Made by a program: the position numbers and the translations under genes | Shown here: one piece after another, positions 30,947 through 50,680 of the stretch | Layout: each line of letters opens with the position of its first letter | Position numbering within the stretch: the stretch's first letter is position 1 | Assembly (NCBI GenBank): GCA_022563855.1 | Contig: JADFMN010000003.1 | Span: 1-64,000, forward strand | DNA from: Armatimonadota bacterium | GTDB lineage: Bacteria > Armatimonadota > Fimbriimonadia > Fimbriimonadales > Fimbriimonadaceae | Reading direction: 5' to 3' | DNA length: 64,000 bases | Notes under the pieces: generated by a model | What the model saw: the letters and a program-made list of their open reading frames with translations, nothing else | The model's database searches: none | What the model was told of the DNA's origin: nothing

Positions 30947-31002
30947 CTGCCAGGGATCAGTACGGCTTCTCTCTCGCCATAGGTGCCGCTGAGAGGAAGT
31001 TC

Positions 31003-31071
31003 TGGAGGCGTAGAGCGGATTCGAACCGCTGAATGACGGTTTTGAAGACCTTTACTCCAGTTCGGACACAG
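31003..31071 (-). pseudogene. Displaced, degenerate tRNA-Cys 3' part
   Basis: Positions 31003-31044 are identical to 34993-35034, the 3' 42 bases of the intact tRNA-Cys. One mismatch follows at 31045 (31003-31050 against 34993-35040 is 47 of 48). Similarity continues weakly through the D-arm (CCAGTTCGGACAC against CCACTTGGGCAC) but the 5' acceptor strand is absent, so it cannot fold as a tRNA. Same orientation as the intact gene, 3,990 bases away. Confidence 0.85.
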
Positions 31072-31175: not shown

Positions 31176-34100
31176 CTATCGCCAATCCCCGACGAGCATG
31201 AACGGCGCCCAGTGGAACGGGTGGCGCCATCTCGGGTCTTCGCGGATCGAGTCCATGGCACGCTGCAGGGCGACGTCCTTCGCCGCTCCTTTTATCAGCT
31301 CCGTGTAGAACGCGACCATCAGGGCCGACGTGCTGTCGTCCTGGACGCTCCACAGGCTAACGACGATGCTGCGCGCGCCGGCGTACTGCAATGCGCGAGT
31401 CAGGCCGATGACCCCTTCGCTTCTTGTAGTTTCTCCGAGCGCCGTCTCGCACGCGCTGAGCACCACGAGGTCCGCGTTCAGACGGAACCCCTCGAAGATC
31501 TCCCAGGCCTGCAGGAAGCCGTCGTCGCTCCCAGATGCCACGAGCGCAAGGCCGGACGCCAGCGGGTCCTCGTCGTCCAGCAGCCCGTGGCAGGCGAAGT
31601 GCACGATGCGCGCCCTCGGGGAAAGCTCCTTCGCCTCCGTCTCAGTCGCCATTGCGCCGAGACGGACTATGGCAGCGTCGCCGAACAGCGCGGCGATGGA
31701 CTCCACTTCAACCAGCGTGAACGGAAGGCGCGACAGTTCGCCCGACCTTAGACTGCTGCGACGAATGCGCGAGTCCTGATCGGCCTCTTCCTCGTTGCAG
31801 TTCCCTCCGTACGCCGGGTCGCCGAAGGCGAGAATCTCGTACTCGTACTCGTACTCCTTCGGGGATTCCTCCCACTGCAGGCGGGCCTCTGCGTAGACCG
31901 TCATCGAGACGATGGTGTGCAGAGGCTTCGCTTCTGTGAAGAAGCGGGCGTTCGCGAGGTCCTGCGAGCCTTCGGCGGGCGGTACGGGAACCGGCTTGCT
32001 GCCTCTTTGCCCTGCCCGCCAGGCGCCGCGCACGGTTTCTCTTTGCCTGGTCTTGCTCGCGCTGGGATCTTCGACCTTGGTGACCAGCGCCGCGAACGGC
32101 AGGTTGTGGAGCGGGCCGTCGGGGCAGATCAGGACGCGCTCGGCTCTTTCTACTTCGGATTCGGCAGGCCGGACGAGAAGGTCGTACAGGTCCTTGCCTT
32201 TTTGCACTACCGCTCCCCCCACGACGATCAAGGCCCTGAATTCTTCGACGAGCTGCTGCAATTCCTCTGCGCCGGCTTTCAAACGGTACAGCTTGAGGCC
32301 GTAGTCTTTCTCCTTCCGCGCTCCTTCTCCTCCCAGGAGGGTGAAGAGGTAGGTCTCCTCCCTGTCCACAAAATAGGTGAGCAGCAACGTTCCCTTGTCC
32401 AGCGCAGCTTGCGATCCCTCAAGGTCGAGCGGCTGCGGGTACTGGACCGCTGCGTACTTCGGCGACACTCTTCGGAACTCGGCGTCCAGCTCGCGCTGCT
32501 GGACCTTGAGGCTCAGTATCTCCGCCCGCAGCTCGTCCTCCCGAGCTGGGTCGGCTTTGTCTGCGAGCTTTGCGAGCATGGAATAAGCATTTGCTCTATT
32601 AGCATCAAGTTCGTTCTGTTCTTCGACCAGCACTACCGGCGCGTCTGCCGTGAAGTCCACTCCCCGTTCGGCGATCTGGTCCGCCAGGCCGCGCGCGCGG
32701 CTGCGCTCGACAACGTCGAAGGCCGTAGCTCCATCCGCCAACGCCACGTGCGCGCGGAGCAGTCCGGCATACGCATAGAATTGCCTGCCGAGAAACAACG
32801 AACGGACCTCAGCGGAGCGTATCGACCCACGTTGCGACTCGATGATCTCGATCGCTTGCGAGCAGTACTGGACTGCGTCAGCGAAGTTGTCTCGGTCGGA
32901 CGCGACAACGCCCAGGCTGTAGAGAATCGTGGCCACGTCGAGCGAATCCGGGGCGAGACGCTCCTCAATAGCCAGCGCGCGCTTGTGATACTCCTCCGCC
33001 GCCTGAAGGTCGCCACGGTCGTATGCTACCAATCCCAGGTTGTTGAGGCTCCCAGCCACGTCGAGCGAGTCGGGAGCGAGACGCTTCCTGATCCCCAGCG
33101 CGCGCTTGTGATACTCCTCTGCTGACTGCAGGTCGCCACGCCGCGATGCGACGCTTCCCAGGTTGTTGAGGCTAAGTGCCACGTGGAGAGAATCCGGAGA
33201 GAAACGCTCCTTTATTGCCAGCGCGCGCTTATAATACTCCTCGGCTGCCTGGAGGTCGCCACGGTCGTATGCTACCAATCCCAGGTTGTTGAGGCTCCCA
33301 GCCACGTCGTGCGAGTCGGGAGCGAGACGCTTCCTGATCCCCAGCGCGCGCTTGTGATACTCCTCGGCCGCCTGCAGGTCGCCACGGTCGTAGGCGACAG
33401 CGCCCAGGATGTTGAGGCTCATTGCCACCTCGAGCGAGTCCAGAGCCAGACGCTCTTTGATCGCCAGAGAGCGCCTGGAGTACTCCGCCGCCGCCTGCAG
33501 GTCGCCACGTTTGGATGCGACGTTGCCCAGGTTGTTGAGGCTCACGGCCACGCTGGGCGAGTCCGGAGCCAGACGCTCTTTGATCGCCAGAGAGCGCCTG
33601 TAGTACTCCTCCGCCGCCTGCAGGTCGCCACGTTTGGATGCGACGTTGCCCAGGTTGTTGAGGCTCATTGCCACATCGAGCGAATTGGGGGCCAGACGTT
33701 CCTTGATTTCCAACGCACGCGCGTAATAATTCTCCGCCGCCTGTAGGTTCCCTCGGCCACCTGCGGCGATCCCCAGATTGTTCAAGCTTGCGGCAACGGC
33801 GAGTGAATCGGGCGCTAGACGCTCCTCAATAGCCAGCGCGCGCAGGAAATACGAATCCGCTGCACCTGGGTCGCCACGGTCGTAGGCGACAGCGCCCAGG
33901 TTGTTGAGGCTCCCAGCCATGTCGAGCGAGTCCGGAGCCAGACGCTCTTTGATCGCCAGAGAGCGCCTGAAGTACTCCTCCGCCGCCTTCAGGTTCCCTC
34001 GGCCGCGTGCGGCGATCCCCAGGTTGTTGAGGCTCCCAGCCACGTCGAGCGAGTCGGGAGCGAGACGCTCCCTGATCTCCAGTACTCGCAGGAAATACGA

Positions 34101-34889
34101 TTCCGCTGCGCGAGGGTCGCCGCGCATGTCTGCGACAATGCCCACACTCGTTAACATGTCCGCTAACCAGAGTTCGTATCCCGCACCTTCACTTGCCTCG
34201 CAAGCTTGGTCGTACCACTCCTTGGCCGCGTCAAAATCGTTCAGGTTTTGGCTGCATCGACCGAGGGATGACAAAGTTTTCGATCGCGCCGCCATATCTC
34301 CGCTACCCGACAACAGTTCCAGGGCGGACTCGTTCGACTGCAGTGCCCCTTCCCAATTCCGCTGGCGGAACAAAATCCTCGCCATCCGGCGATATAGCCA
34401 GGACGCGGACGTTTTGTCGCCCTCTTTCTCGGCCGCTCCCGCAGCGTCGGTCCATTTCGCGACCGCCTCGTCCGAAGCGCCCGACTCCAGCAGCGTAGAG
34501 CCCTCGGAATACAGCTTCAGCACCTCGGGCGAGAGATCGGGCCACGCAACGATGCCCAAAGACCTCAGCGGCACCTCGAGGCTCAACGTCCCATCCCCGC
34601 GCACAAGCCGCAGCTTCACGCTCTCCGGACCGAACGTGTTCTCCTCCAGCGCGCGCAGCTTCGCAGGCGAGGTCAGCGGCTTACCGTCATACGTCATCAG
34701 CCGGTCCCCGGCCTCGATCCCCGCCTTCTCCCCCGCAGAGCCCGGCTCCACGCTCTCCACGATCAGCCCCTTCGTCTGGGCGTCCTGCGACGGCGTACCT
34801 CCAACCCAAGATGGGTCGGGCACCGATAAGAGCGCCCCCGCGAGGGCGATTCCGACAGCAAGCGTTAGCGGCGTTCGTAACATCATCAT
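31176..34889 (-). CDS. Exported PDZ-TPR-CHAT protease-like protein
   Basis: A 1,237-residue protein with a signal peptide (LTLAVGIALAGALLS, 8-22). A PDZ domain covers about 38-110 (VEPGSAGEKAGIEAGDRLM), then irregular TPRs and an array of about ten 42-residue TPR units (about 244-664) with consensus RGDLQAAEEYYKRALAIKE. The C-terminal CHAT caspase-like domain has the catalytic His in HFACHG (H1101) and Cys in VVLSACETALG (C1147). CHAT proteins are caspase/separase-like peptidases; TPRs normally bind a partner. Export would place it outside the cytoplasm, unlike CRISPR-associated TPR-CHAT. GGAGGG precedes the ATG. It is the only gene between tRNA-Cys and its displaced copy. Confidence 0.88.
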   Translation of the reverse strand: MMMLRTPLTLAVGIALAGALLSVPDPSWVGGTPSQDAQTKGLIVESVEPGSAGEKAGIEAGDRLMTYDGKPLTSPAKLRALEENTFGPESVKLRLVRGDGTLSLEVPLRSLGIVAWPDLSPEVLKLYSEGSTLLESGASDEAVAKWTDAAGAAEKEGDKTSASWLYRRMARILFRQRNWEGALQSNESALELLSGSGDMAARSKTLSSLGRCSQNLNDFDAAKEWYDQACEASEGAGYELWLADMLTSVGIVADMRGDPRAAESYFLRVLEIRERLAPDSLDVAGSLNNLGIAARGRGNLKAAEEYFRRSLAIKERLAPDSLDMAGSLNNLGAVAYDRGDPGAADSYFLRALAIEERLAPDSLAVAASLNNLGIAAGGRGNLQAAENYYARALEIKERLAPNSLDVAMSLNNLGNVASKRGDLQAAEEYYRRSLAIKERLAPDSPSVAVSLNNLGNVASKRGDLQAAAEYSRRSLAIKERLALDSLEVAMSLNILGAVAYDRGDLQAAEEYHKRALGIRKRLAPDSHDVAGSLNNLGLVAYDRGDLQAAEEYYKRALAIKERFSPDSLHVALSLNNLGSVASRRGDLQSAEEYHKRALGIRKRLAPDSLDVAGSLNNLGLVAYDRGDLQAAEEYHKRALAIEERLAPDSLDVATILYSLGVVASDRDNFADAVQYCSQAIEIIESQRGSIRSAEVRSLFLGRQFYAYAGLLRAHVALADGATAFDVVERSRARGLADQIAERGVDFTADAPVVLVEEQNELDANRANAYSMLAKLADKADPAREDELRAEILSLKVQQRELDAEFRRVSPKYAAVQYPQPLDLEGSQAALDKGTLLLTYFVDREETYLFTLLGGEGARKEKDYGLKLYRLKAGAEELQQLVEEFRALIVVGGAVVQKGKDLYDLLVRPAESEVERAERVLICPDGPLHNLPFAALVTKVEDPSASKTRQRETVRGAWRAGQRGSKPVPVPPAEGSQDLANARFFTEAKPLHTIVSMTVYAEARLQWEESPKEYEYEYEILAFGDPAYGGNCNEEEADQDSRIRRSSLRSGELSRLPFTLVEVESIAALFGDAAIVRLGAMATETEAKELSPRARIVHFACHGLLDDEDPLASGLALVASGSDDGFLQAWEIFEGFRLNADLVVLSACETALGETTRSEGVIGLTRALQYAGARSIVVSLWSVQDDSTSALMVAFYTELIKGAAKDVALQRAMDSIREDPRWRHPFHWAPFMLVGDWR
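32900..34160 (-). repeat. Tandem 126-bp repeats encoding TPR units
   Basis: About ten units of 126 bp encode 42-residue TPRs. Neighbouring units are nearly identical in DNA, for example the blocks around 33010-33100 and 33250-33340, or 33480-33560 and 33600-33680. This suggests recent unit duplication or gene conversion, and copy number is likely to vary among strains. Confidence 0.85.
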
Positions 34890-34992: not shown

Positions 34993-35068
34993 TGGAGGCG
35001 TAGAGCGGATTCGAACCGCTGAATGACGGTTTTGCAGACCGTTCCCTTAACCACTTGGGCACTACGCC
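34993..35068 (-). tRNA. tRNA-Cys (GCA)
   Basis: Acceptor strands GGCGTAG (35068-35062) and CTACGCC (35003-34997) pair fully. The anticodon loop CTGCAAA lies in an ACGGT/ACCGT stem. The T-arm is AGCGG TTCGAAT CCGCT. Discriminator U and CCA are encoded (34993-34996). Its 3' part is duplicated at 31003. Confidence 0.95.
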
Positions 35069-41825: not shown

Positions 41826-41847
41826 AGAAATCGCCTTAAACCTTAAC

Positions 41848-42738
41848 ATGTCAAAACGATCTTTTCGCTTCGACCGAAGACAGTTCCTCACCGCGACCGG
41901 CGGGATTGCGCTCGCAATGACAGTGTCGCCAAAGATGCTTACAGCGATCGCGCCCCGGCGACGCGCGGGCGCTCTGCGCACCATCACCTACAACGTCCTC
42001 GCCTGTCGCGGGTACCCATCGACTGACGAAAACAGGGCGGTGCTGCGCGAAGCGCGCAAGCAGATGCCGGCCCGCATGGCGCTGGAGCTTGCGCTCTACG
42101 AACCGGACATCGTCACGTTCCAAGAGTCTCCCGCCGAGTCCGTCTCCGCCGAGATCGCGGACCGTATGGGGATGAACTACACGTACTTTCCCGGCGGCTA
42201 TCCGGGGACAGTGATCACGCGGTTCGAGATTACGGAATCGACCAACAAGCCGTTGGCTGCAGGGGTGGACGCTGACGACGTCAAGGGTCTGTTCACGCGC
42301 CACTGGGGCCGCGCTGTTTTGAAGACCGACGACGGCGACCTCGTTATTTACAGCGCGCACCTGCACCCCGGCAACGTGGAGACCCGCGGAAAGGAGGTCG
42401 CGCAGATGCTCGCCGCGATGTCGGCAGACATCGAGTCGGGCCGCGACATGATCCTGCAGGGAGATCTGAACCACCTGCCGGACGGACCGGAATACGGGCG
42501 ATGGGTCTACGCGGGACTTGTGGATTCGATTGCGACGAAAGGCGTTGGCGACAACCGTTTCAGCATCAACAGCATCGCGCCGACGCGGTATATCGACTAC
42601 ATCTGGACGCACGGCCCGCTCGCCGACCGCCTCACCGAGTGCCGCGTGCTGTTCGAGGGCGGCTTCCGCACCAACCCCGACGACCCGAAGTCGTTCGCGC
42701 TCAGCGACCACATCCCTGTGCTGGCTGTGTTCGAGTAG
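41848..42738 (+). CDS. Tat-exported EEP family hydrolase
   Basis: A 296-residue endonuclease/exonuclease/phosphatase-fold protein with a Tat leader (FDRRQFLTATGGIALAM). The motifs are TITYNVLACRG, VTFQESPAES, IYSAHLHPGN, LQGDLNHLPDG, RYIDYIWTHGP and LSDHIPVLAVFE. It follows the DUF1501 gene and may belong to the same unit. It is not close to the EEP protein at the left end of the window. A displaced copy of its last 67 codons lies at 43578-43779, beyond an inserted lipoprotein gene. Confidence 0.88.
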   Translation: MSKRSFRFDRRQFLTATGGIALAMTVSPKMLTAIAPRRRAGALRTITYNVLACRGYPSTDENRAVLREARKQMPARMALELALYEPDIVTFQESPAESVSAEIADRMGMNYTYFPGGYPGTVITRFEITESTNKPLAAGVDADDVKGLFTRHWGRAVLKTDDGDLVIYSAHLHPGNVETRGKEVAQMLAAMSADIESGRDMILQGDLNHLPDGPEYGRWVYAGLVDSIATKGVGDNRFSINSIAPTRYIDYIWTHGPLADRLTECRVLFEGGFRTNPDDPKSFALSDHIPVLAVFE

Positions 42739-42769
42739 AGGAGCAAGCGTTCGCGACCGCTGCCGTTTC

Positions 42770-43459
42770 TCACTCTTCGTCAATCCCAAGAACTATGTCA
42801 ACGGTGAACACCTTCTGCTCCCCATCTTCTTCGATGAAGTCAAACAGAATGCTTGTGTCGTCAATCGCAATGACGAAAAACGGCTCCTCGATGCTTTCGT
42901 ATGGAATTATCGTCCAGTAGTATTGCAGTTCATTCGCGTTTGCTTTCCTAACGTGTATTGGAAATTTGGGTTTGAATTCGGGCAGCAAGCGAAACGCGTC
43001 CAAATACAACTGAAAAAGATCCCAAAACTCTTCCTGCTGTGCATCGGTCTTGAATACTCTGCCGTCAAGGCTCTGCACCTCTCCGCTCGCTAGATTCGGA
43101 ATCACGAAAGTAGCGGGCATGGCGTCCTGCAACTCCTTTGGCGCCGTGTCCTTTAAGGCGTTCCACAGGCCTGGGCCGCATATAATGGCTTTCGGGCTTT
43201 TCTTCCTGAGTTCCTCGGCTGGACGAACCTCGTCAACAAGGCTTTGCAGAAAATCGAACGCCTTACTGTTGTCCTCTGCCGATGCCTCGGTGTATTTAAC
43301 GCCTGGAGGGATTTCTATTTCACCACTTTGCCAGTTCGAGGCTTCAGGTTCATCACCCTGTTGGTTCGAGGCTTCCGCCTCATTCTTGGACCGACTCGAA
43401 CATCCGGCAAGTATGCACAGAACAGCTATGCCGCACCAGACTCCTTTGCGAAACAGCAT
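42770..43459 (-). CDS. Lipoprotein of unknown function (cargo of the EEP slot)
   Basis: The protein is 229 residues from ATG 43459 (MLFRKGVWCG), chosen because a lipobox ILAGCSS follows; the longer in-frame start adds 28 residues without a signal. After a low-complexity linker with two copies of an EASN-Q-GE motif, the mature domain is mixed alpha/beta (AFDFLQSLVDEV, FWDLFQLYLDAF, YYWTIIPYESIEEPFFVIAIDD). I do not recognise it. It is opposite in direction to its neighbours and lies between the EEP gene and the displaced EEP 3' end. Confidence 0.6.
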   Translation of the reverse strand: MLFRKGVWCGIAVLCILAGCSSRSKNEAEASNQQGDEPEASNWQSGEIEIPPGVKYTEASAEDNSKAFDFLQSLVDEVRPAEELRKKSPKAIICGPGLWNALKDTAPKELQDAMPATFVIPNLASGEVQSLDGRVFKTDAQQEEFWDLFQLYLDAFRLLPEFKPKFPIHVRKANANELQYYWTIIPYESIEEPFFVIAIDDTSILFDFIEEDGEQKVFTVDIVLGIDEE

Positions 43460-43577
43460 GATCCTCGCCGACGAAGTTACCTCACTGGCATCTGCGAAAG
43501 TGGCTTCCACATGTTTCGCGGCTTCTGCAATCTTTGGCGGCATGGCTACCCATCGCGTTTTGTCCTTCCACCGCTAG

Positions 43578-43779
43578 TCGAAGGGCACCGGCGGCGATCT
43601 CACCATTCCCAGCACCGAGCCGCGAGTGAGGATCGACTACGTCTGGGCGCATGGCCCAGCTCGCCGACCGCCTCACCGAGTGCCGCGTGCTGTTCGAAGG
43701 TGCATTCCGCACTAACCCCGACGACCCGAAGTCGTTCGCGCTCAGTGACCACATCCCGGTGCTCGCGGTGTTCGAGTAA
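43578..43779 (+). pseudogene. Displaced 3' end of the EEP gene (one frameshift)
   Basis: In frame it reads KGTGGDLTIPSTEPRVR then IDYVWAHGP. After one extra base near 43657 it continues as LADRLTECRVLFEGAF, RTNPDDPKSFALSDHIPV, LAVFE and a stop. The last 39 residues differ from the intact gene at one position, while several codons differ synonymously. No start or 5' part exists. Confidence 0.85.
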
Positions 43780-43840
43780 TCCGCTCCGCACGTGGAGCGG
43801 CCACTTCCCGGTCGCGGCGCGTTTCTGTCAGAATGCCTCC

Positions 43841-45505
43841 ATGCGACACTTGGCACTCCCTCGTATCGGGTGGGCGCTGGCTTTGGTCACCCTCGTGACT
43901 GGTCTCGGCCTTTGGTCCAATGCCTCTGAGCCAAGCAGCACTGAGATGCGGTCTGTCCCAAAGGCAGCCCCGTTAGCCAATGCTGCCGTAGGCGAGACGC
44001 CTCTCAAGACGCACTACAAGCTGGGCCGCTTCTCCGCTACGATCCTCGACGAAGCGACGGGCGAGCCGACACCCGTTCGAGTGCGTCTCACGGATGCAAA
44101 CGGGGTGGGTGTTCCGTTGCCCGAGGCCGCGATCGGGGTCATGTACGGTCCGAATGACGTAGCGTCGGGATACGGCTCTCAGCGGGACGGTTCCTTCTAT
44201 GTGGACGGGGCCTTCCGAGTCGAGCTTGAGCCGGGCACCTACCGACTGACGCTGTCCAAAGGCAACGAGTATTTGAGCCAGCAGCATGAGATCAGGCTCG
44301 AACCCGATGGTGACCTGTCGCAGACTTTCCGGATGGACCGATGGATCAACATGCCGGAGAGAGGCTGGTTCTCGGCAGACGATCACATCCATATCCGGCG
44401 GTCGCCGCGAGAAAACCCGCTGATACTCACGTGGATCGCGGCCGAGGATATCCACGTCGGCGCGCTCTTGCAGATGGGTGACTTCTGGGCGACCTACTTC
44501 GCGCAGTACGCGTGGGGCCAAGACGGCGTTTACCAAGTCGAGGAGTATTTCTTGACATCAGGGCAGGAAGAGCCGCGCACCCACGAGATCGGGCACACCA
44601 TTTCGCTCGGAGCCGACGCATTGGTTCGGTTCCAGGGTGAGTACTACCACTACGATCGAGTGTTCGACCGCGTGCACGAACTGGGCGGCTTGACCGGTTA
44701 CGCGCATAAGGCGGTGGCATTCCACGGTTACCGGGGCATGACGCTGGACGTCCTCAGGAACAAGGTGGACTTTCTCGAGATCCTACAGTTCGGTTCGATG
44801 AACACCGAGCACTACTACCACTTCCTCGACCTGGGATTCAAACTGACCGCAACGGCAGGCTCGGACTTTCCCTGGGGCTCTCCGATCGGAGCCGAACGGT
44901 TCTACACCTACGTCGTAGACGACTTCACCTTCGACAACTGGCGCGCAAGCTTTCACGCCGGCCACACGTTCGTCACCAACGGCCCCATCATCGAACTAAA
45001 GGTGAATGGAGCGATCCCCGGTGACGGGTTGGACGTGGCAAGCGGGACGACGCTGTCCATCACGGCTCGAGCGTTCGGACACGCGGAGCAGGTGCCGCTC
45101 AGCGACCTGGAGATCGTCGCCCACGGCAAGGTCCTCAAGCGCGTCACGCGGGAGGAGCCGGGGCAGTCGACGAGCCAGCTCGTGATCGAGATGGAGCTGC
45201 CCGCGGAGTACGGCGTGTGGATCGCCGCCCGGACAAAGGCCTCAGCAAACCAGGTGGCGCATACGACGCCAGTCTACGTCAGTGTGGACGGTTCCGGGTA
45301 CCACAACCCGGAGACGGCACTTCGATATCTCGCCCTCTGCGAGCGGTATCTCCTGGAGCTGCAGCGCGAGATCGCCCAGCCCAACCAGACGCTCAACCAA
45401 CACGCCTGGCGGTATCGCGAGGGGCTCGAAGGCCGCATCGCCGAGACTCGCGAGATCATCGCAGAACTCAGGGCAGAGTTCGCGGCACAAGCAATGTCGG
45501 GCTAG
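43841..45505 (+). CDS. Exported CehA/McbA-type PHP metallohydrolase
   Basis: The protein is 554 residues from ATG 43841, with CAGAAT ending six bases upstream and a signal peptide (WALALVTLVTGLGLWSNA). After a carboxypeptidase-regulatory-like beta domain (ATILDEATGEPTPVRVRL), the PHP-type catalytic region has SADDHIHIRR, LLQMGDFWATYF, GLTGYAHKAVAF and ATAGSDFPWGS; these His and Asp residues would bind metals. Named relatives hydrolyse carbaryl, but the natural substrate here is unknown. A C-terminal coiled segment ends the chain. Confidence 0.8.
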   Translation: MRHLALPRIGWALALVTLVTGLGLWSNASEPSSTEMRSVPKAAPLANAAVGETPLKTHYKLGRFSATILDEATGEPTPVRVRLTDANGVGVPLPEAAIGVMYGPNDVASGYGSQRDGSFYVDGAFRVELEPGTYRLTLSKGNEYLSQQHEIRLEPDGDLSQTFRMDRWINMPERGWFSADDHIHIRRSPRENPLILTWIAAEDIHVGALLQMGDFWATYFAQYAWGQDGVYQVEEYFLTSGQEEPRTHEIGHTISLGADALVRFQGEYYHYDRVFDRVHELGGLTGYAHKAVAFHGYRGMTLDVLRNKVDFLEILQFGSMNTEHYYHFLDLGFKLTATAGSDFPWGSPIGAERFYTYVVDDFTFDNWRASFHAGHTFVTNGPIIELKVNGAIPGDGLDVASGTTLSITARAFGHAEQVPLSDLEIVAHGKVLKRVTREEPGQSTSQLVIEMELPAEYGVWIAARTKASANQVAHTTPVYVSVDGSGYHNPETALRYLALCERYLLELQREIAQPNQTLNQHAWRYREGLEGRIAETREIIAELRAEFAAQAMSG

Positions 45506-45566
45506 TTGCTGAGGCACGATCGCAACGCGCAAAGCCAAGGTCAGCTCCGGCGAGTTATCGGGCGTA

Positions 45567-45935
45567 CTAATCTCGGGTCTCGAACAGTTCGATGGGATTG
45601 CCTGAAGGATCCTCGATGAGGATCTGCTTGCCTCCAGGCCCCTCTATTAGCTCGCCTCTGAACGTGACACCTTCTTTCCGGAGATCCTCGACGAACGAAG
45701 GCAAGTCCTCGACGATGATTACCAGCCTGTTCCATCCGCCCGGCACGGGCTTCCGTCCGTCGGGCATTGGCTGGGCGGCGGACGACTGAGGCCCGCTGAT
45801 CCATAAGCGCAAATCGCCCTTAGCGAGAATCGCGAAGGGCGGCCCCCACCGTTTCTCCAGCTCGAACCCGAGTCTCTCCGTGTAGAACTCGAGGACCGCA
45901 TCTACGTCGTCGACAAGGTAGCGCACAGTGGCCAT
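45567..45935 (-). CDS. VOC superfamily (glyoxalase/bleomycin-resistance-like) protein
   Basis: The protein is 122 residues from ATG 45935 (MATVRYLVDDVDAVLEFY). It has the paired beta-alpha-beta modules of the vicinal oxygen chelate fold, with PPFAILAKGDLRLWISG, VIIVEDLPSFVEDLRKEGV and the C-terminal metal Glu in NPIELFE. The substrate is unknown. TAGAGT lies seven bases upstream. The N-terminal half plus upstream DNA recurs at 50332-50521. Confidence 0.85.
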   Translation of the reverse strand: MATVRYLVDDVDAVLEFYTERLGFELEKRWGPPFAILAKGDLRLWISGPQSSAAQPMPDGRKPVPGGWNRLVIIVEDLPSFVEDLRKEGVTFRGELIEGPGGKQILIEDPSGNPIELFETRD

Positions 45936-45993
45936 GTCAAGAACTCTACCCAGCTGAGTTCGTTTCGACCTTGCCGAAGAGGTGGTGTGACCG

Positions 45994-46067
45994 TTGTGGT
46001 GCAGGCATCCTGCCTGCACGGTACGAGACTGTAGGACAGAGGAGCAGGCAGGATGCCTGCACCACAA
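45994..46067. repeat. 24-bp inverted repeat upstream of the REP-type transposase
   Basis: TTGTGGTGCAGGCATCCTGCCTGC (45994-46017) is perfectly complementary to 46044-46067 across a 26-base spacer. Such GC-rich palindromes next to a Y1 transposase are typical of REP/REPIN sequences recognised by RAYT enzymes. Only this copy is seen in the window. Confidence 0.8.
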
Positions 46068-46099
46068 GTCTGGCCTCGAACAGGAGTACACTTCGGTAT

Positions 46100-46690
46100 A
46101 TGGGAGATAATGACGAGACCGATCTTCAAGCTCAAGTATTCAGCTTTCTTGACCAGCGAAATGCGAGGCTAACAAGAGGATCGGGGGTTTTGGCAAGGCC
46201 TGAGGTTGCGCAGATTGTCGAAGACGCGATCTGTTTCAATCGTGGCGAGAGGCACTTGCTCCATGCATGGTGCATCTTGCTCAACCATGTGCATTTGGTA
46301 ACGACACCCCTGCCACCATTTGAGCTGAGTGAAGTCATGCACTCGATCAAGAGCTTCAGCTCCTTGAAGATCAACAAGCTGCTTTCACGAAAGGCCCCGC
46401 TATGGGAGCGGGAGTCGTTCGACCACATGATCCGTTCGGCGGATCAGTTCGGAGCGATCTGTTCGTACGTTGAGCAGAATCCCGTATCAGCCGGCTTGTG
46501 CGCGAAACCTGAGGAGTGGCAGTTCAGCTCGGCGTGCGCTGGGAAAGAGACCGACTCATTGGAAGTTTGGATCGATCAGAGGAAGACTCCTTTCGTCCCC
46601 TTGGCCAGCAGAGGTGAGCTGCCTCACTTGTCCAAAGACGGCGCGACGTACTTTGTAACGTTCAGGCTGTTGGACGCGGTTAAGTCCTGA
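46100..46690 (+). mobile_element. REP-associated tyrosine transposase (Y1_Tnp), apparently rearranged
   Basis: A 196-residue HUH enzyme: LNHVHLVTTPL carries the His-x-His metal site, the YVEQNPVSAGL block carries the catalytic Tyr, and KSFSSLKINKLL and LWERESFDHMIR are family blocks. The usual first strand of the family, ATYFVTFRLLD, is at the very C-terminus (about residues 180-192) rather than at the start. So the gene looks permuted, or is the join of the end of one copy with the beginning of another. TACACT lies seven bases before the ATG. Activity is uncertain. Confidence 0.75.
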
Positions 46691-46760
46691 AGGCTGGCTC
46701 AAATCGACGAGCTCTTAGGATCGTGACCGGGAGCAGTGTGATACGCTTGAGAGTAGATCA

Positions 46761-47108
46761 ATGATGGAAATCAGCGTTCATCGACCTTGGAATTACTTTG
46801 GCTGTGCGAGAAAGCTCAAAGTCCGAGTCGATGGCATGGTGATCGGCGCAGTGAAGGCAGGCAAGACTGAGGTCTTCGAAGTCATCGCTGCGGTTCACGC
46901 GGTCCAGGTTTCCATGGACTGGGTCAAGAGCCCGGCAGTCGAGGTCGATCTGAGATCAATCGATCGAGCTGAACTAAGAGTTCAGTTCGCGAGCATTCCA
47001 GAGAGTCTTGTCTATACGTTCTTTGCCCCTACGAAGATATTCACCCTGGTTCACCTGTCCGAACGCCCTCCGATTCAGAACGGTGTTAGTCCCTATCCGA
47101 GGGCATGA
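46761..47108 (+). CDS. Small hypothetical protein
   Basis: A 115-residue cytosolic protein, HRPWNYFGCARKLKVRVDG at the start, then VIGAVKAGKTEVFEVIAA and VHAVQVSMDWVKSPAV. The R-V-V-D-G-x-x-x-G-x-x-K-x-G pattern followed by H-x-V-x-x-x-x-D-W resembles small beta-sandwich domains that follow PEGA or DUF2846 patterns. That is weak inference. It ends close to the truncated tfoX gene. Confidence 0.5.
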   Translation: MMEISVHRPWNYFGCARKLKVRVDGMVIGAVKAGKTEVFEVIAAVHAVQVSMDWVKSPAVEVDLRSIDRAELRVQFASIPESLVYTFFAPTKIFTLVHLSERPPIQNGVSPYPRA

Positions 47109-47136
47109 CCGACAGGTTGTTCGATAGACTGGCGCG

Positions 47137-47271
47137 ATGCACTCGAACATGGAGATTGTCGAACGTTTGCGTGACGAATTGGAGGGTCAATTGGGGGTTA
47201 AAGAGACGAAGATGTTTGGCGGAATCTGCTTCATGCTCAACGGCAACATGTGTGTCGGGGTGTGGCGTTGA
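47137..47271 (+). pseudogene. Truncated TfoX N-terminal domain gene
   Basis: A 44-codon frame, MHSNMEIVERLRDELEG then KETKMFGGICFMLNGNMCVGV, matches the first half of TfoX_N proteins (MFGGxxFMxNGNM). It then stops at 47269-47271, and the second half is absent. Its promoter-like TAGACT remains six bases before the ATG. The break falls 92 bases before the dehydratase operon, so it probably marks an insertion or deletion edge. Confidence 0.75.
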
Positions 47272-47363
47272 TGTAGATGGTCACAGGTGATTGTTCGCGA
47301 GCTATCTTCGAAGATCCGGGGTGGCCATTCAGCAAGAAATTCTGGGCCCGGTAGACTGCCTCC

Positions 47364-48314
47364 ATGACGAGTCGGCCGGAGCTGTCGGAAATACGCGCCG
47401 CGTCGGAAGGGATGAAGAACGTCGTTTGCCGGACACCGCTCGTGCCGTTTCAGCCGGGCGAGCCAACCGACATACATCTTAAATTGGAAATCCACCAGCC
47501 GATGAATTCGTTCAAGATCCGGGGCGTATTTCATGCCGTCGCGTCCCTCGGGCCCGAAGGGCGCGCCAAGGGATTGAGTACGGTGAGCGCAGGCAACACA
47601 GCTCAGGCCCTGGCGTGGGCGGCTCGCCACTTCGGCGTTGCCGCTCGTAGTTTGATGCCCGACAAAGCGCCGAGCAGCAAAATTCAAGCGGTGAGAGGGC
47701 TCGGAGCAACACCGGTCCTGGTGCCGACCGAAGAAGTGTTCGCGTATATGAAGGGTCACGGTTGGGAGGACGAGCCCTATGCATTCATCCACCCCTGGAC
47801 CAATCGGGACGTGATGACCGGCCATGGCGGCATGGGGATCGAGATCGTCGAGGATCTTCCCGACGTCGACTCGGTGTTCATTCCTGTCGGCGGCGGCGGA
47901 CTCCTGGGCGGCGTGGGCAGCGCCCTTAAGGCCCTGCGACCTGAGGTGAAGATCTTTGGCGTCGAACCGGCGGGCTGCCCATCGCTGTACGACGCGATTC
48001 AGAGTGGCAGGCCAGTGACGGTCGAGTGCAAGACGATTTGCGACGGCGTCGCCGTGCCGTACATCACCCAAGAGATGTTCCCCCTCCTCAGCGGCCTGGT
48101 AGAAAAAGTCATCCTGGTGAGCGAGGAATCAGTCCGCGATTCGATCCGCATGCTCTGTCTCGAATGCAAGTTGATCGTCGAACCGGCGGGAGCACTGTCA
48201 TTGGCAGCCGCCCTTGCCACACCCTTGGGCGACCGCGGCAAGAGCGTCTGCATCGTGTCCGGCGGCAACATCGACAATGATCTATTGATCGGGATTCTCA
48301 GGCCCCAGAAGTGA
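47364..48314 (+). CDS. Threonine dehydratase-like PLP enzyme (first of two)
   Basis: A 316-residue fold-type II PLP enzyme. The Schiff-base lysine is in NSFKIRG (K51), the phosphate loop is GGGGLLGG, and TVSAGNTAQALAW and IVSGGNIDND fit serine/threonine dehydratases. There is no regulatory ACT domain, so it is a catabolic type; hydroxyaspartate or ectoine-derived substrates are possible. TAGACT lies six bases before the ATG. It is the first gene of an operon with a cyclodeaminase-family gene eight bases on. Confidence 0.85.
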   Translation: MTSRPELSEIRAASEGMKNVVCRTPLVPFQPGEPTDIHLKLEIHQPMNSFKIRGVFHAVASLGPEGRAKGLSTVSAGNTAQALAWAARHFGVAARSLMPDKAPSSKIQAVRGLGATPVLVPTEEVFAYMKGHGWEDEPYAFIHPWTNRDVMTGHGGMGIEIVEDLPDVDSVFIPVGGGGLLGGVGSALKALRPEVKIFGVEPAGCPSLYDAIQSGRPVTVECKTICDGVAVPYITQEMFPLLSGLVEKVILVSEESVRDSIRMLCLECKLIVEPAGALSLAAALATPLGDRGKSVCIVSGGNIDNDLLIGILRPQK

Positions 48315-48321
48315 GCAACCG

Positions 48322-49323
48322 ATGAAAGTTCTCCATATCAACTACAAGGAAGTCCGTCGACTGCTGCCAATGGAGCAATGCATCGAGGAGATGTCCGAAG
48401 TGCTCAAGACGTTCTCCGACGGCGACGTTGTGATGCCCCTGCGCTCGATCGTCTGGCATCCCGACAAACGAGGCGCATTGGGCGTGATGCCGGCGTATTT
48501 AGGGAATCCTGAGCTCTTTGGCATCAAGATCGTAACGGTGTTTCCCGGCAACGAAGGAACGGACTACGAATCACACCAAGGGGCAGTGATGTTGTTCGAT
48601 GCCGAGCACGGTCGGCTCCTTGCGATCATCGACGGCGGCGAGATCACGACGATCCGCACCGCCGCGGTGAGCGCGGTCGCTACCAGAGTTCTCGCACGCA
48701 AAGACGCACGAGATCTGGCGATCATCGGGTCGGGAACGCAAGCCCGATCTCATCTGCAAGCGATGGCGGCGGTGCGCGACCTCCGTCGCATTCGCGTCTG
48801 GAGCCGCAACCGGGAGAACGCGCAACATTTCGCCGAATGGGCTCGCCCGATTGCGGACGTGGAAGTGGCGCAGACCGCCCGCGGAGCCGTCGAGGGCGCG
48901 GACATCATCTGCACGGTAACAGGTTCGAAAGAACCGGTGATTCAAGGTGAGTGGATCAGTCCCGGCTCTCATATCAACGCGGTCGGTGCCTGCGTCAAAG
49001 TCGCTCGCGAGCTGGATTCGGCTGCGGTCGCCCGTTCGCGCCTGTTCGTCGACTGCCGAGAATCGGCGTTCAATGAATCGGGCGATATCCTGATCCCGAG
49101 GCAAGAAGGACTCTTTGGAGACGACCACGTTAGAGCCGAATTGGGAGAGGTCTTGGCGGGCCGAGCGGAGGGCAGAGAGTCGGACGAAGAGGTTACTCTC
49201 TTCAAAAGCCTCGGAATTGCCGTCGAAGACCTGGCGGCGGCCCACTACATCTATCGCAGAGCTCAGGCCGAGAACATCGGCCTGTCGGTCGAGCTGGGGG
49301 GACTGCGCCATGGAGCATCGTGA
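48322..49323 (+). CDS. Ornithine cyclodeaminase/mu-crystallin family protein
   Basis: A 333-residue NAD(P)-dependent protein. It has the Rossmann loop IIGSGTQARSHLQAM, the substrate-binding MPLRSIVW and GIKIVTVFPGNE, and the family block DGGEITTIRTAAVSAVATR. Members deaminate ornithine, reduce imines or make amino acids. In ectoine (EutC) and hydroxyaspartate (BhcD) pathways a member sits next to a dehydratase, as here. It overlaps the next gene by 14 bases. Confidence 0.88.
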   Translation: MKVLHINYKEVRRLLPMEQCIEEMSEVLKTFSDGDVVMPLRSIVWHPDKRGALGVMPAYLGNPELFGIKIVTVFPGNEGTDYESHQGAVMLFDAEHGRLLAIIDGGEITTIRTAAVSAVATRVLARKDARDLAIIGSGTQARSHLQAMAAVRDLRRIRVWSRNRENAQHFAEWARPIADVEVAQTARGAVEGADIICTVTGSKEPVIQGEWISPGSHINAVGACVKVARELDSAAVARSRLFVDCRESAFNESGDILIPRQEGLFGDDHVRAELGEVLAGRAEGRESDEEVTLFKSLGIAVEDLAAAHYIYRRAQAENIGLSVELGGLRHGAS

Positions 49324-50272
49324 GCCGATTCCCCTCGAGGAAATCCGCGCCGCTCGGGAACGCATCGTCGGCACGGCGATGCGCACGCCGCTGGTGCCTC
49401 TCGGCAACGATCAGGGCGGTGCTGAGATCTTCCTCAAGCTCGAAAACCTCCAGCCCATCGGCTCCTTCAAGATTAGGGGCGCTGCCAACGCTATCCTGAG
49501 CACGCCGACGGAAGAACTGGCCGCCGGTGTCTACACGGCTAGCGCTGGAAACATGGGCCAGGGAGTCGCCTGGGTAGCGCGGAAATTCGGGTTTCCCGCT
49601 CGCGTCGTCGTTCCCGATCACGCTCCCAAAACCAAACTGGACGCCATCGAGCGGCTCGGTGCAACAATCGTTAAGGTGCCGTTCGATCGCTGGTGGCGCG
49701 TCATCGTCGAACACGAGCTCGAAGGGATGGAGGGGAAGTTCATCCATCCCGTCTCCAATCGGGCGGTCATCGCTGGCAACGGAACTATCGGCCTCGAAAT
49801 CCTGGAGGATCTGCCCGAGGTCGATACGATCGTAGTACCCTACGGAGGCGGAGGATTGAGCTGCGGCATCGCCTCGGCGGTCAAGGCACTGAAAGCAGAT
49901 ACAAGGGTGTTTGCCGCTGAGGTGGCCACGGCCGCGCCCTTTGCCGCATCCCTCGAAAAGGGAGAGCCGGTGGAAATCGACTACCAGGCCAGTTTCGTCG
50001 ACGGTATCGGAGGCAAGAGCGTGCTTCCTGAAATGTGGCCCCTGGCAAGTTCCATACTGGACGGGTCGCTCGTTGTCTCCGTGGCAGAGATCGCTTCGGC
50101 GATCCGCTTTATGATCGAGCGCAACCGGGTCGTTGCCGAAGGGGCTGGGGCGGCGTCGGTCGCCGCTGCCCTCGCCGGGCGGGCCGGTGTAGGCAAGATC
50201 GTCTGTGTCGTTTCCGGTGGCAACATCGACGGTTCCAAGATCCGACAAATCCTGGCTGGCGACGTTCCGTGA
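49310..50272 (+). CDS. Threonine dehydratase-like PLP enzyme (second of two)
   Basis: The protein is 320 residues from ATG 49310, inside the end of the cyclodeaminase gene. It has GSFKIRGAAN (K54), TASAGNMGQGVAW, YGGGGLSCGI and VVSGGNIDGSKI. It is a clear paralogue of the first gene of the operon, but the sequences are well diverged, so they probably have different substrates or form a heteromer. There is no ACT domain. The operon ends here; a partial VOC gene follows. Confidence 0.85.
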   Translation: MEHREPIPLEEIRAARERIVGTAMRTPLVPLGNDQGGAEIFLKLENLQPIGSFKIRGAANAILSTPTEELAAGVYTASAGNMGQGVAWVARKFGFPARVVVPDHAPKTKLDAIERLGATIVKVPFDRWWRVIVEHELEGMEGKFIHPVSNRAVIAGNGTIGLEILEDLPEVDTIVVPYGGGGLSCGIASAVKALKADTRVFAAEVATAAPFAASLEKGEPVEIDYQASFVDGIGGKSVLPEMWPLASSILDGSLVVSVAEIASAIRFMIERNRVVAEGAGAASVAAALAGRAGVGKIVCVVSGGNIDGSKIRQILAGDVP

Positions 50273-50337
50273 TCCGCGCTTACTCGATTGTGCTTGAGAA
50301 CGAACCATCCGCAAAGAAGGTTTGACTCAAGCGGCTG

Positions 50338-50491
50338 ACGACTGAGGCCCGCAGATCCACTAACGCAAATCACCCCTGCGGAGAATCGCGAAGGGCGGCC
50401 CCCACCGTTTCTCAAGCTCGAACCCGAGCCTCGCTGTGTAGAACTCGAGGACCGCATCTACGTCGTCAACAAGGTAACGCACGGTAGCCAT
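50338..50491 (-). pseudogene. N-terminal remnant of the VOC gene
   Basis: From 50491 it reads MATVRYLVDDVDAVLEFY, then TARLGFELEKRWGPPF, then AILRRGDLR and a stop where the intact gene continues. It then has ICGPQSS and ends. The similarity to 45777-45959 spans about 190 bases including the upstream region. The second half of the gene is missing. Confidence 0.85.
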
Positions 50492-50523
50492 GTCAATAAC
50501 TTCCTAGCGTATCCAACTGAGTA

Positions 50524-50680
50524 CGGTCGCCTCCCGCCTCAAGGGGGGCGAGAGTGGGGTTGAGCAGACAGAGTCCCTTCGTCTTTCCCAACCGGGCACC
50601 GCGGGAGAAAGGCAAGGTGGAAAGGACTGGATTTCCTTGACCCCTCACCCTGTCCTCTCCCTCAAGGGGAGAGGGGAAAA
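50524..50680. repeat. CCCTC/GAGGG hairpin repeats
   Basis: The spacer downstream of atpG has CCTCTCCCTCAAGGGGAGAGG (about 50654-50675), a tight hairpin, and a looser copy near 50530 (CGCCTCAAGGGGGGCGAGAG). Palindromes of this CTCTCCCTCAAGGGGAGAG type are dispersed in many bacterial genomes. It may also help end the ATP synthase transcript. Confidence 0.5.

Follow-up and report, generated by a model that had tools for sequence, protein, structure and literature searches.

A broken second 3' end beside an intact EEP gene in an Armatimonadota genome: probable remnant of a separately diverged gene and possible scar of DNA uptake

Homology-facilitated illegitimate recombination (HFIR) is described, in PMC3240628, for three naturally competent species and as a rare event in conjugation of E. 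coli. It has also been proposed, in the corresponding part of PMC5361080, to account for the sequential displacement of gene ends in the T6SS clusters of Vibrio. Replacement 3' ends are likewise known for integrases acting at icd and at tRNA genes, as outlined in PMC10111431. Here we describe a locus that invites comparison with these systems. It lies in a 64,000-nucleotide stretch of an Armatimonadota genome (contig JADFMN010000003.1 of GCA_022563855.1; hereafter the window), where the end of an endonuclease/exonuclease/phosphatase (EEP) gene recurs as a broken copy beyond a lipoprotein gene (Table 1).

Copy 1 matches the PF03372 profile at 46.6 bits (4.7e-12, residues 46-288), above the cut-off of 24.5, which places it in the EEP superfamily; its Tat-type label goes with a TAT_signal score of 13.9 bits, under the 16.7 cut-off of that model. 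A tblastn search with the EEP protein recovered the relic in two frames, residues 230-257 at 46% and residues 258-296 at 97% identity (E 9e-21), so that the repeat is far beyond chance; the frame is shifted by one extra base at about position 43658. An unfiltered profile scan of positions 42730-43790 in the three plus-strand frames detected no further EEP sequence upstream of 43578, and the relic therefore begins abruptly. The likeness of the two copies is uneven: the last 123 nt are 92% identical and the preceding part is much less alike. Ten positions differ over the last 120 nt, and eight of the last 39 codons differ, seven of them synonymously, with TAG and TAA as the stop codons; over the first ~27 relic codons, 13 of 28 residues are identical to copy 1 (counted by eye on the alignments).

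A first-pass annotation had reported the recurrence with its added base, the lipoprotein gene on the opposite strand between the copies, and mostly synonymous changes. The first two are borne out, and the third holds for the last 39 codons and not for the first ~27. Its judgement that the copy is untranslatable also agrees with our reading: since the first ~229 residues are missing and the frame is shifted, the relic cannot encode a working enzyme.

A run of 13 codons (39 nt, 42618-42656) is shared unchanged by three diverged versions of the 3' part of EEP, including the one at L041:5517-6413, and the 3' end of the gene displays more synonymous conservation than the remainder. Searches of solved structures and of plasmids with the EEP protein gave nothing, and none of the stretches matched by EEP peptide patterns, 25 in genome_contigs and 105 in viral_contigs, was a relative. 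An Rfam search and a promoter/terminator scan also found nothing.

The insert between the copies is compositionally foreign: the contig mean is 59.6% GC (sd 2.7), and 0.9% of 1,850 windows of 839 bp are equally low. It holds the lipoprotein frame and overlapping frames, among which the family search covered the lipoprotein alone. The lipoprotein gene is the only gene identified in the insert, and no integrase gene was found there. The 229-aa protein has a lipoprotein-like beginning with a lipobox-like LAGC. Apart from itself, it has a single homologue in the 291 phylum genomes, encoded by G032 (39% over residues 49-222). A longer reading of 257 aa (42773-43543) had no Pfam match, a single-sequence fold of the lipoprotein was uninformative (pLDDT 37.5), and a search of solved structures returned one row at chance level.

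Both EEP copies belong to a lineage-specific accessory block which also contains the lipoprotein gene, the CehA gene, a glyoxalase gene, a REP/RAYT element, a PALP-OCD-PALP group and a glyoxalase relic. In G031, from another genus of the same family, TPI-PSD1-DUF1501 on contig C136 is collinear with the window and atpG-atpA follows, DUF1501 and atpG being 1,430 nt apart versus 8,865 nt in the window. The order TPI-PSD1-DUF1501 is confirmed in G001, of the same genus, whose contig C99 ends inside DUF1501. The glyoxalase relic sits at the right edge of the block, beside atpG, and differs from the start of the glyoxalase gene by 10 synonymous and 4 non-synonymous codon changes. A perfect 24-nt inverted repeat (REP-like, 45994-46067) lies beside a Y1_Tnp (RAYT-type) gene (46100-46690). 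With regard to REP/RAYT activity as a candidate cause of the relic, the palindrome is not at the EEP-relic junctions.

Table 1. Features of the EEP locus and of the nearby tRNA-Cys duplication (positions in the window).
Feature	Position	Strand	Basis or remark
tRNA-Cys 3' fragment, 58 nt, 93%	30996-31053	-	intact gene 34993-35068
Lone PDZ-TPR-CHAT gene between tRNA-Cys and its fragment	31176-34889		
Lineage-specific accessory block between DUF1501 and atpG	41826-50600 (right edge approximate)	.	absent at G031 locus
Tat-type EEP gene, copy 1, intact	41848-42738	+	296 aa; PF03372; TAT_signal model
Stretch of copy 1 repeated further downstream	42535-42738	+	sequence alignments
Low-GC insert between EEP copies, 839 bp	42739-43577	.	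51.5% GC
Putative lipoprotein gene, 229 aa, unknown family	42770-43459	-	lipobox-like LAGC; one phylum homologue
EEP relic (copy 2): 3' end alone, frameshifted, sharp 5' edge	43578-43779	+	alignments, profile scan
CehA/McbA family metallohydrolase gene	43841-45505	+	NF038032, 189.8 bits
Glyoxalase 5'-end relic, in-frame stop	50331-50501	-	88.9% identical to 45775-45945 over 171 nt

A third lineage bears on the kinship of the two copies. At E 1e-10 no EEP relative was found in the other 290 genomes of the window's phylum (EEP in 1 of 291). A search of ten genomes reached through the CehA protein yielded one close homologue (73% amino acid identity, E 9e-143), encoded on contig C90 of G291, the Acidobacteria MAG behind L029, and the same MAG carries the closest CehA relative found (70%). 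Among 297 genomes drawn from the phylum of G291, EEP was found in G291 together with one weak 30% match, and among nine genomes of its order and class in G291 alone. The EEP contig of G291 bears a single copy, with no second EEP or CehA match and no insert; the gene that follows is on the opposite strand and resembles a gamma-glutamyltransferase by eye.

Pairwise comparison over the fragment region gives 36 differences in 201 sites for copy 1 and the relic, 42 in 204 for copy 1 and G291, and 38 in 201 for the relic and G291. As the three are equidistant, the relic appears to have diverged separately rather than to have been recently displaced from copy 1. It is the remnant of a separately diverged second EEP gene, the two window copies being, to judge from these distances, no more recently related to each other than to the gene of another phylum. 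Within the last 39 codons there are four at which copy 1 equals G291 and the relic departs from both, each time by a synonymous change; at another two codons, no two of the three copies agree. Of random changes in this part, 71-76% would be non-synonymous, and none in four has a probability of 0.003-0.007 under neutral change, on small counts. This argues for a recent truncation: the relic diverged as part of a working gene, under purifying selection, and was then cut. That divergence, whether it took place in this genome or in a different one, lasted about as long as the separation of copy 1 from the Acidobacteria homologue.

The similarity step toward the 3' end also exists between copy 1 and G291, where, of the codons for a shared residue, 33 of 37 within the last 39 match exactly versus 117 of 174 elsewhere (Fisher p 0.009, with the boundary between the parts set by the extent of the relic). 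Because conversion in situ cannot act between these two genomes, the step reflects constraint rather than gene conversion within the genome, and the apparent recent kinship of the copies is old divergence combined with strong 3' conservation. The recent displacement proposed by the first-pass annotation thus divides in two: a recent truncation is supported and a recent departure from copy 1 is not. Its companion proposal, that the relic still recombines with the intact gene, finds no support either, given the same distances and the step seen against G291. Nor was a "slot" with other occupants seen: EEP occurs in one of 291 phylum genomes, and G291 lacks the insert. The order expected in relatives, EEP directly followed by a CehA-type gene, does not occur in G291, the sole close homologue. 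Two complete tandem EEP genes, named beforehand as the refuting case, were not seen, G291 being the one informative relative.

The origin that we favour for the relic, with about even chances, is an integration of foreign DNA that was homologous on one side and illegitimate on the other. The starting point would be a resident EEP gene in front of the CehA-type gene, and the incoming DNA would have consisted of a diverged EEP gene followed by the lipoprotein gene. Pairing with the resident EEP may have involved its conserved 3' stretch or sequence lying more upstream, while an illegitimate junction would have fused the far end into the resident gene, about 67 codons short of its terminus. The outcome would be an intact EEP gene, a foreign lipoprotein gene and the truncated tail of the resident, which may later have taken one frameshift. 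On this reading the relic would be an accidental scar without a function of its own, now within the divergent promoter region between the lipoprotein gene and the CehA gene.

This integration model is favoured by the equidistance of the copies, the foreign GC content of the insert, the abrupt edge of the relic and the absence of the block in G031. It is favoured too by other inserts bordered by gene ends (tRNA-Cys, glyoxalase, TauE-like) with the repeat excess described below, and by a mechanism of a type already published (PMC3240628) and proposed for Vibrio T6SS gene ends (PMC5361080), as those accounts present it. Set against the marks of HFIR, the locus has one abrupt non-homologous junction and a gain of non-homologous DNA (insert GC, block absent in G031), and its anchor copies show the degree of difference expected between orthologues of a donor and a recipient, though old paralogy looks alike. 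No donor, recipient or relative with an intact EEP gene at this spot was found among the genomes searched, the same-genus contig ending inside DUF1501, and the ancestral gene order is for this reason inferred. It also counts against the integration model that tandem paralogues losing the second 5' part would yield the same end product, and that homologous pairing would face a large overall divergence of EEP, even though the 39-nt exact run exists.

Within the same 20 kb lie two more inserts, each with an end-fragment of the flanking gene as a border, namely of tRNA-Cys and of glyoxalase. The tRNA-Cys duplication lies ~7 kb left of the EEP locus, with no integrase between the gene and its fragment. 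The CHAT gene was absent from all 10 loci examined in relatives, and the distance from tRNA-Cys to scpA is 117 nt in G002 versus 5,498 in the window. As G004 has two adjacent tRNA-Cys genes, the fragment is possibly a decayed second tRNA. Elsewhere in the genome, the last ~45 codons of a TauE-like gene (L081; C1:380467-381267; family name by eye) recur ~300 nt downstream, at about 381520-381668, with mostly synonymous changes and the same sequence of intact gene, gap and 3' fragment as for EEP; a search for the empty site gave short matches alone. On contig C3 the 3' end of an S8-type (subtilisin-like) peptidase gene (96138-96300 and 100961-102729; family by eye) recurs 4.7 kb off as a 96-aa ORF (77% nt).

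Nearby two-copy direct repeats of 50-260 nt were counted by one fixed procedure, families with more than two copies being dropped beforehand. This genome has 17 over 771 kb (C3 8, C1 9), and four family members together have seven over 1,600 kb (G007 0, G032 2, G018 0, G016 5). The binomial p of 0.0002 ignores clustering, and the contrast is over-dispersed: G016 alone contributes five, and three of the nine C1 repeats fall in one cluster at 386-393 kb. The list, some of whose 17 members were inspected, includes the tRNA-Cys, EEP, glyoxalase, S8-type peptidase (C3) and TauE-like (C1) cases. A gene-based automatic scan for gene ends gave strict counts of 2 for C3, 5 for C1 and 0 each for G007 and G032; neither the EEP nor the glyoxalase case was picked up by it, most likely since its gene set had longer overlapping frames in place of those genes. 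A common process, by which single-gene cargo is taken up without an integrase and attaches at gene ends (EEP 3', tRNA-Cys 3', glyoxalase 5', TauE 3'), each time with the anchor kept intact and the displaced end remaining as a scar, is in our opinion a doubtful extension.

Long-separated tandem paralogues, in which an insertion/deletion introduced the lipoprotein gene at the cost of the first ~229 codons of EEP number two, form an explanation that we hold to be on the unlikely side, with real weight nonetheless. It is simple, for the EEP locus alone nearly as good as integration, and, provided that the duplication is old, compatible with copies as far apart as either is from G291; contig C1 moreover has many tandem and partial gene copies. 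It is opposed by the single EEP copy in the only relative with a close EEP and by the absence of EEP from the rest of the phylum sample, and it leaves the tRNA-Cys and glyoxalase end-fragments at two other inserts unexplained.

That an integrase-mobilised cassette inserted site-specifically at the EEP 3' end, replacing it and pushing the old end away, seems improbable to us. Cargo flanked by a gene-end duplication with a 39-nt exact block, whose 13 conserved codons are identical in G291 too, would suit such an event, as would the tRNA-Cys case of the same shape, and a replaced 3' end is what icd and tRNA integrases leave in the account cited above; yet the enzyme would have to come from elsewhere than the 839-bp insert, and the glyoxalase duplication is of a 5' end, with no second integration found. 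Recent duplication followed by gene conversion between the copies is very improbable, since the sharp rise in likeness over the last 123 nt that would suggest it recurs against the other-phylum homologue and all three copies are equidistant. A polymorphic-toxin arrangement of EEP toxin, lipoprotein immunity protein and orphan tip was rejected, the 3' end being conserved and the lipoprotein on the other strand. An assembly artefact is barely credible: the genome is a draft of 22 contigs (96.2% complete, 3.27% contamination) and the relic has one frameshift, but the region repeat scan found no repeat at the 43577/43578 junction to explain a false join, and 36 differing sites in 201 are too many for read error.

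A partial copy whose protein sequence is conserved is easily misread: in the absence of a third lineage it resembles recent displacement or conversion, and with one the same copy becomes old divergence followed by recent breakage. If the several gene-end scars of this genome share one cause, they would be traces left where foreign DNA was joined to gene ends, in a phylum that has been sampled sparsely.

As in gene-end integration at icd and tRNA genes, where the target 3' end is duplicated, the intact gene restored and cargo placed between (PMC10111431, in the part describing these sites), an intact gene, cargo and a second 3' end follow one another here; the EEP insert differs in having no integrase. 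With the displaced effector ends and orphan immunity genes of Vibrio T6SS clusters and with Rhs C-terminal displacement, the locus shares a new gene and cargo that precede what is left of the old gene, its truncated 3' end. In those systems, as described in the relevant part of PMC5361080, the 3' end is variable, toxic and accompanied by immunity genes, whereas the 3' end of EEP is its most conserved part, in place of a constant 5' region with a variable end, and the cargo is an opposite-strand lipoprotein gene. The EEP case differs from HFIR in being inferred from one sequence, with putative donor and recipient, and resembles it, as characterised in PMC3240628, in its one homologous and one illegitimate junction, its gain of foreign DNA and the partial copy of the anchor gene left behind. 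The locus has the look of an ordinary scar of DNA uptake, not of a special slot for insertions, and as a scar of a known kind it is well formed.
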